Program-made: the position numbers and the translations under genes | Shown here: positions 25,585-26,767 of the stretch, piece by piece | How the letters are laid out: each line of letters starts with the position of its first letter | How positions within the stretch are numbered: position 1 is the first letter of the stretch | Origin: Armatimonadota bacterium | Lineage (GTDB): Bacteria; Sysuimicrobiota; Sysuimicrobiia; Sysuimicrobiales; Humicultoraceae | Length of the DNA: 64,000 bases | Direction: 5' to 3' | NCBI GenBank assembly: GCA_031459855.1 | Contig: JAVKHP010000001.1 | Location: 2,828,309-2,892,308, forward strand | Notes under the pieces: generated by a model | What the model saw: the letters and a program-made list of their open reading frames with translations, nothing else | Told to the model about the DNA's origin: nothing | The model's database searches: none

Positions 25585-25722
25585 CGTGACGCGTACCCTC
25601 CTTCCTGATGCTATAACGCGATGCTATGACCGTGCTATGACCGCGGACCCACCACGCGTGTCGGCACAGATGACGGCACGGCCCTTACGCGGGCTTCCGG
25701 CGCTACACGGCGCTACCCGGCC

Positions 25723-26562
25723 CTACCCGGTGCCCTGGCGCGACGAGGCGAAGCGCGCCACGAACCGCGCGGCTCGCGGGCTGCTCCGCACCGGCCGGGC
25801 ATACGCCCTGGCCAGGATGGCCGCCCCCGCGGTGGGTGGGAAGGACAGGATGACCAGCCCGGACGCACGCGCCGGCTCGAGGCGCCCGGTCCCCACCCCG
25901 CAGGCGCCCAGCACGCGGCGCAGGCTGTCTGCAAGGGGCAGCGGCCCGACCATGGCCAGGCCCGTGGTGCGCCCGGGCGGTGATGGCAGGACGCGGAGGC
26001 CGCCAAACGGCGGCGCACGGCGGCTGCCCTCGAGGTACCCGCGGACGAAGTCGAACGCCAGGGCGGCGGGTACGTAGTCGAGGGTCACCGAGGCCGCCGC
26101 CAGCGTGCCGGTCAGCCCCCACTGCGAGAGCACCTCGGCCAGGGCGGGGTCGCGCACGTAGGCCTGCCGGCCCTCCAGGCTGCTGTCGGCGAACTCCACC
26201 CGCGGGTGGCCCCGCACCAGGTCGGCGACCATGGCCTGCACGTGCGGCTCGTCGTGCGGATGGATGGCCAGGACCACGGTCGCCGCGTTCCCCTGCCCGA
26301 CCACCCGCCCGCAGGCTGTCACGTAGCCCAGCCAGTAGATCTGCACGGGCGCGTCGTCGGGCGGCGGCGCCGTGCGGTAGTCGTAGGGCCGCCGCAACCC
26401 GCATGGCTGGTGCAGGGACCGCAGGTACCGGTACACGGTCGGGGCGGGCAGGTTGTGCTTGGCCGCGATCTCTTCCGCCGAGAGCCCGGCGGCGCGGTCA
26501 GCGTAGAGCGCGACGATGGTGCGGGGGTCGCGCGCCAAGACGGCCTCGTGCGCCACTTTCAC
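25723..26562 (-). CDS. HTH plus degenerate LAGLIDADG-type domain protein
   Basis: The protein is 279 aa. Residues about 15-50 form an HTH (TIVALYADRAAGLSAEEIAA, KHNLPAPTVYRYLRSLHQ). The rest reads as two LAGLIDADG-like halves: IYWLGYVTACGRVVG corresponds to YWLGxxxADG, and FDFVRGYLEGSRRAP corresponds to FxRGxxDGDG. The first catalytic acid is replaced by Cys in TACG, and the second half has Glu. It is therefore likely a DNA-binding regulator derived from a homing endonuclease, in the way WhiA is, not an active nuclease. The GTG at 26562 sits exactly 6 nt after an extended -10, implying a leaderless mRNA. It is not WhiA itself, which has the opposite domain order. Confidence 0.7.
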   Translation of the reverse strand: MKVAHEAVLARDPRTIVALYADRAAGLSAEEIAAKHNLPAPTVYRYLRSLHQPCGLRRPYDYRTAPPPDDAPVQIYWLGYVTACGRVVGQGNAATVVLAIHPHDEPHVQAMVADLVRGHPRVEFADSSLEGRQAYVRDPALAEVLSQWGLTGTLAAASVTLDYVPAALAFDFVRGYLEGSRRAPPFGGLRVLPSPPGRTTGLAMVGPLPLADSLRRVLGACGVGTGRLEPARASGLVILSFPPTAGAAILARAYARPVRSSPRAARFVARFASSRQGTG

Positions 26563-26568
26563 CTGCTC

Positions 26569-26577
26569 AGTATAGCA
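26569..26577 (-). promoter_or_regulatory. Extended -10 giving a leaderless transcript
   Basis: The minus strand reads TGC-TATACT-GAGCAG-GTG, with 6 nt between the -10 hexamer and the GTG start codon. No Shine-Dalgarno sequence fits in that gap, so the mRNA should begin at or within a base or two of the start codon. Confidence 0.7.
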
Positions 26578-26767
26578 CGTATGGCACGGGCGCCGCGCGC
26601 AGGGAGCCATGGTCCGTGGGCGAATCAACGCCTACGCCGTACCGCCACGGGCGCGTGTGGCCACGTGACGCCGGCTGCGGGTGTCGCGTCGGCGACAGAC
26701 GTCGTAGGCGCCTTCCGATGGGCGCGCGTCGCCACGTGGCGCTCGCCATACGAAAGGAGCGACCACC

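Follow-up and report, generated by a model that had tools for sequence, protein, structure and literature searches.

A putative domesticated homing endonuclease of phage type, carrying an N-terminal helix-turn-helix, in the phylum Sysuimicrobiota

Introduction

Among bacteria, the known instance of a homing endonuclease fold turned regulator is WhiA (DUF199/COG1481). It joins a LAGLIDADG fold without catalytic residues to a helix-turn-helix (HTH) and is maintained as a host gene (PMC3781837). The HTH of WhiA can bind DNA alone, and affinity appears to be raised by the dead domain, whose role is still open (PMC3781837).

A second set of relevant proteins is found in phages. The homing endonucleases grouped as phrog_4645 include those of Yersinia phage phiR1-37 and Lysinibacillus phage LC76P1, and a similar protein is encoded by Alicyclobacillus phage KKP_3916. 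Several phrog_4645 enzymes sit inside split phage genes (gyrA, topoisomerase II, MRE11, and DNA polymerase). They share with the family described here an N-terminal HTH followed by two LAGLIDADG halves, and a YWLG motif. In the phage enzymes the ADG and DGDG motifs are intact, whereas the family has lost these acids; it also differs in being chromosomal, with a tree that follows host families.

Here we analyze the member of this family encoded in a 64,000-nucleotide stretch of an Armatimonadota bacterium genome (“the window”, to which positions refer unless stated otherwise). We found no published description of the family in the literature searched, which may not cover all papers.

Results

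The gene and its predicted leaderless promoter

The minus-strand frame is open from a TTG at 26628 down to 25723, and the supported start of the HTH-LAGLIDADG gene is the GTG at 26562, giving a protein of 279 aa. The features are as follows.

25723-26562, minus strand: whole gene, GTG start, 279 aa, HTH and two degenerate LAGLIDADG halves (open reading frame; homologues in 32 of 43 phylum genomes; dN/dS 0.06-0.30)
26569-26577, minus strand: extended -10 TGcTATACT, 6 nt 5' of the GTG, predicting a leaderless mRNA (homologue comparison; 0 of 90 other conserved genes)
26422-26526, minus strand: N-terminal HTH, residues 13-47 (Pfam HTH_IclR above gathering score; three model helices)
26122-26352, minus strand: LAGLIDADG half 1, residues 71-147 (model secondary structure; phrog_4645 match at 74-179)
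26308-26337, minus strand: motif 1, YWLGYVTACG, residues 76-85, Cys84 at the catalytic Asp position (acid in 0 of 29 homologues; Asp in intact relatives)
25804-26067, minus strand: LAGLIDADG half 2, residues 166-253 (model secondary structure; the first strand of this half is unformed)
26020-26049, minus strand: motif 2, FVRGYLEGSR, residues 172-181, Ser180 at the catalytic Asp position (Asp in 4 of 29; DGDG in intact relatives)
25738-25779, minus strand: C-terminal basic helix, residues 262-275 (model; tail net charge at least 0 in all 29 aligned members)

An earlier note on this DNA had placed the gene at 25723-26577. The gene stands, but 26577 is not its start: there is no start codon there, and this base is the first of TGcTATACT (26577-26569). 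The same note had called the gene leaderless, and comparison of homologues agrees. Sixteen homologues, drawn from the main clade of host family f1 and from f2 and f6, have a TGnTAnnnT sequence ending exactly 6 or 7 nt 5' of a GTG or ATG; in one of the 16 (L113) the hexamer is weak. For three members the position of the extended -10 implies a GTG start six bases 5' of the ATG chosen initially. None of 90 further conserved genes from these loci was positive in this test; they are partly orthologues and hence do not amount to 90 independent trials. Of 19,907 ATG or GTG triplets at any position, 15 had the element at this spacing, a count that takes in the starts of the family itself. Because the element lies at 6-7 nt in 16 members and in none of the 90 other genes, leaderless expression, as predicted from promoter position, is a conserved trait of the f1 main clade, f2, and f6. 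The feature is missing from the f7 members and from the smaller f1 clade, of which three complete members were examined.

A 10-bp tandem repeat, CCGGCGCTAC, spans the 3' end of the gene in 3.4 copies (25697-25730). Three direct repeats of YATAGCAY, spaced 11-13 bp apart, lie in the promoter region of an M19 dipeptidase gene (25608-25640, minus strand), and this is the only place in the whole genome where the paired form occurs. A fourth copy (26571-26578) overlaps the -10 element of the LAGLIDADG gene. These repeats are possibly an operator, and we regard them as a lead only. No inverted-repeat operator conserved upstream among the homologues was found; a TTCAGGC/GCCTGAA pair upstream of the gene in Segetimicrobium (G029) was discarded, as it is absent from the related genome G017.

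An HTH joined to a LAGLIDADG fold

Residues 13-52, approximately, matched Pfam HTH_IclR with 24.2 bits, where the gathering score is 22, and an AlphaFold2 model placed three helices there (13-24, 29-35, and 40-47). The likeness to IclR regulators is confined to the HTH; there was no match to the C-terminal IclR effector domain. Residues 74-179 matched phrog_4645, annotated “endonuclease”, at 8.8e-6, and this profile also matched 28 of the 29 relatives. The Pfam LAGLIDADG models gave no match at E 0.01.

The model, built without templates, had a mean pLDDT of 88.7 and a pTM of 0.89. Its order is the HTH, then helix-strand-strand-helix-strand-strand-helix, then a second such half, and finally a short C-terminal helix; of the two alpha-beta-beta-alpha-beta-beta halves, the second lacks its first strand. 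Foldseek against the PDB returned I-Tsp061I, I-DmoI, and VMA inteins at the top, with WhiA at ranks 5 and 6. A distant member from host family f7 was predicted by AlphaFold2 to have the same fold (pLDDT 87.6, pTM 0.86) and again matched LAGLIDADG proteins, WhiA included. TM-scores were moderate, 0.4-0.5 by query, which may be expected given the extra domain and identities of 8-20%. A sequence search of the PDB gave essentially HTH-type and designed-protein matches only, so the evidence for the fold rests on the models. As modeled, the window protein is a LAGLIDADG-fold protein with an N-terminal HTH. The structure prediction that the earlier note had proposed as a check thus returned the LAGLIDADG fold, and both the two halves and the preceding HTH that it had read from the sequence were recovered, the former by model, Foldseek, and phrog_4645 match and the latter by Pfam score and model helices.

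Loss of the catalytic acids

LAGLIDADG cleavage requires an acid from each half. In the window protein both are lost (Cys84 and Ser180); the replacement at motif 1 (TACG) had been noticed earlier, while the loss at motif 2 had been missed. Across the family alignment the motif-1 position is occupied by A (14), S (7), C (5), or T (3), with an acid in 0 of 29 members, and the motif-2 Asp is kept in 4 of 29. The earlier note had named close homologues with intact acids and endonuclease activity as a refutation; no homologue found has both acids. From these substitutions we infer that the LAGLIDADG fold is catalytically dead in this family and that cleavage has been lost. It is very improbable that the protein is a nuclease still active through other residues: the motif-2 Asp of the four members and a Glu or Asp conserved at position 178 could be cited for this, but an acid is needed from each half, and all 29 members lack that of motif 1.

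Intact relatives occur in the same phylum. Two of them (L089 and L091) have the same motifs in the same half order, with ATDG or TTDG at motif 1 and DGDG at motif 2; they were recovered by phrog_4645 and weakly by the family profile. They differ from the family in that the acids are intact, no HTH was seen before the LAGLIDADG part of the open frame, and their occurrence is sporadic. Other LAGLIDADG proteins were seen alongside. Two ATPase subunit B-like frames (L092 and L096; 730 and 1006 aa) carry an apparent intein bearing a LAGLIDADG part. One genome outside the phylum has an intact LAGLIDADG frame (L116; YWWADG, FVDGDG) with an rpoB-like frame on one side and an rpoC-like frame on the other. 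In Alicyclobacillus phage KKP_3916 (L130, 856-1863 of that sequence), a protein annotated as hypothetical has an HTH before the LAGLIDADG part and a second (HTH_24) after it.

Phage endonucleases are closer than WhiA

In a profile-profile comparison (hhalign), the family matched the phrog_4645 HTH-LAGLIDADG endonucleases with a probability of 98.8% and E 1e-16, collinearly over the HTH and both halves. The phage protein L121 has HTH_7 in front of its LAGLIDADG part at 1.5e-4, and an HTH can be seen by eye in front in L120 and L130. Likeness of the HTH alone is weak evidence; it is the collinear, whole-length match that counts.

The earlier note had suggested a WhiA-like protein with reversed domain order, perhaps a separate regulator family. 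Of these ideas, the data favor a family separate from WhiA. A relative of WhiA with swapped domains might explain why WhiA stands at Foldseek ranks 5 and 6. However, comparison with a WhiA profile (six sequences, some partial) was not significant (probability 1%, E 0.057) while the phage family matched at E 1e-16; WhiA (TIGR00647) was found in none of the 43 phylum genomes, that of the window included, while positive controls were detected; and the HTH is of another type and in another position. We consider such a swap scarcely credible. Since the phage enzymes are already HTH-first, the domain order is simply theirs and no reversal of WhiA is needed. Dead acids are common to WhiA and the family, and these can arise by convergence. 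To judge from the profiles, the domestication appears to be independent of WhiA.

Distribution and inheritance

Homologues were found in 32 of the 43 genomes of the phylum Sysuimicrobiota (CSP1-3), and no full-length homologue was found among 343 genomes outside it. Among the genomes searched, then, the full-length family is specific to one phylum. The other 11 phylum genomes, including all seven of host family f4, are without the gene, and it is therefore not essential to the phylum. A scan of genome contigs with an eight-sequence alignment yielded nine named loci, while a single sequence gave no match and the full family alignment was too diverse for such a scan. No family member was found on a phage, plasmid, or viral contig in the collections searched; a single phage protein matched the family query weakly (E 0.04).

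In the tree, members group by host family, and f2 and f7 are each monophyletic with full support. Pairwise dN/dS was 0.06-0.30, and some residues are invariant across the whole phylum. The gene is real and under purifying selection. A decaying homing endonuclease gene, heading for loss and without host function, might be suspected from its absence in 11 of 43 genomes, and most present-day homing endonuclease genes bear inactivating mutations before they are lost (PMC13405050). The dN/dS values largely refute this idea, and the phylum-wide invariant residues, the conserved promoter, and the host-like phylogeny argue in the same direction, so that decay is very unlikely.

Gene order differs between host families. 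In f2 it is stable across genera, with an FAD oxidoreductase gene upstream and genes for an RRM protein and a DEAD-box helicase downstream; in the genera examined these last two adjoin the family gene (for example L066, 10543-12279 of that locus, and relatives). In f1 and f7 the neighbors vary and the loci are diverse, and hence it is the gene in its own right that is kept. No neighbor conserved across host families was found. Some f7 genomes have two copies; in one of them (G022, L101-L104) the two are 96-98% identical in DNA sequence, and all four pieces break off within the gene at a contig end, which is what a recent duplication should give. Mobile endonuclease genes lie in or beside their target gene. 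We saw no such arrangement here: synteny in f2 is conserved, the tree is host-like, and there is no phage or plasmid copy.

Maturases can arise from LAGLIDADG proteins, and the f2 surroundings (RRM protein, DEAD-box helicase, and DSHCT helicase, in the genera examined) together with the bI3 maturase among the Foldseek matches could speak for an RNA-binding protein with a maturase-like role in RNA metabolism. The RRM and helicase neighbors are missing in f1 and f7, though, and the N-terminal HTH points to DNA; we judge an RNA role quite unlikely.

Discussion

Our preferred reading is that the family is a domesticated phage-type endonuclease that now acts as a non-cutting, DNA-binding transcription regulator. 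DNA binding, loss of cleavage, and regulation are all inferred, and we put the probability of this reading at roughly 55%. The ancestor would have been a free-standing homing endonuclease of the phage type, its two LAGLIDADG halves preceded by an HTH. Within the Sysuimicrobiota (CSP1-3) it may have lost the motif-1 acid while keeping the fold, most members then losing the motif-2 acid as well, and it would have been inherited vertically as a host gene since. The present protein would bind specific DNA sites without cutting, through the HTH and possibly also the LAGLIDADG saddle, and would regulate transcription much as WhiA does, from a separate origin. In f1 (main clade), f2, and f6 its mRNA would be leaderless, transcribed from a promoter with an extended -10.

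The net charge of the LAGLIDADG part ranges from -5 to +9 and is near neutral in many members; of four intact enzymes, three have +10 to +12. Being near neutral, this part may bind DNA only weakly by itself, which suggests that specific binding is in large part the work of the HTH. The recognition helix differs between host families, and we found no target site or regulon. Several observations count against a regulator: no target, operator, or common neighbor was found, the recognition helix is variable, 4 of 29 members keep the motif-2 Asp, and 11 of 43 genomes are without the gene.

One alternative would make the protein an immunity factor and no gene regulator, a dead endonuclease that still recognizes an old homing site and shields it from active relatives. 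Inteins and active LAGLIDADG endonucleases are in circulation within the phylum, and loss of the acids with retention of the fold would give a pure binder. On the other hand, no target site was found, the gene's location in f1 and f7 is diverse, it persists where no active relative was detected (as in G000), and the recognition helix varies. On balance a blocking role is unlikely.

If the family is indeed a regulator, it would be the second independent bacterial domestication of a LAGLIDADG protein to this end, derived from the phage HTH-LAGLIDADG lineage, specific to a single phylum without WhiA, and leaderless by design; we give this broader claim even odds. Another testable trait, and one from an uncultured phylum, is the conserved leaderless start. 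The link with WhiA is one of likeness only. Both are LAGLIDADG folds without catalytic residues, joined to an HTH and kept as host genes; in WhiA the LAGLIDADG domain comes first and the HTH last, whereas here the HTH comes first and one short helix follows half 2. A separate domestication, whose intact relatives are found both in phages and within the phylum, would offer a natural comparison with WhiA, to ask why a dead LAGLIDADG domain is kept and which steps repeat.
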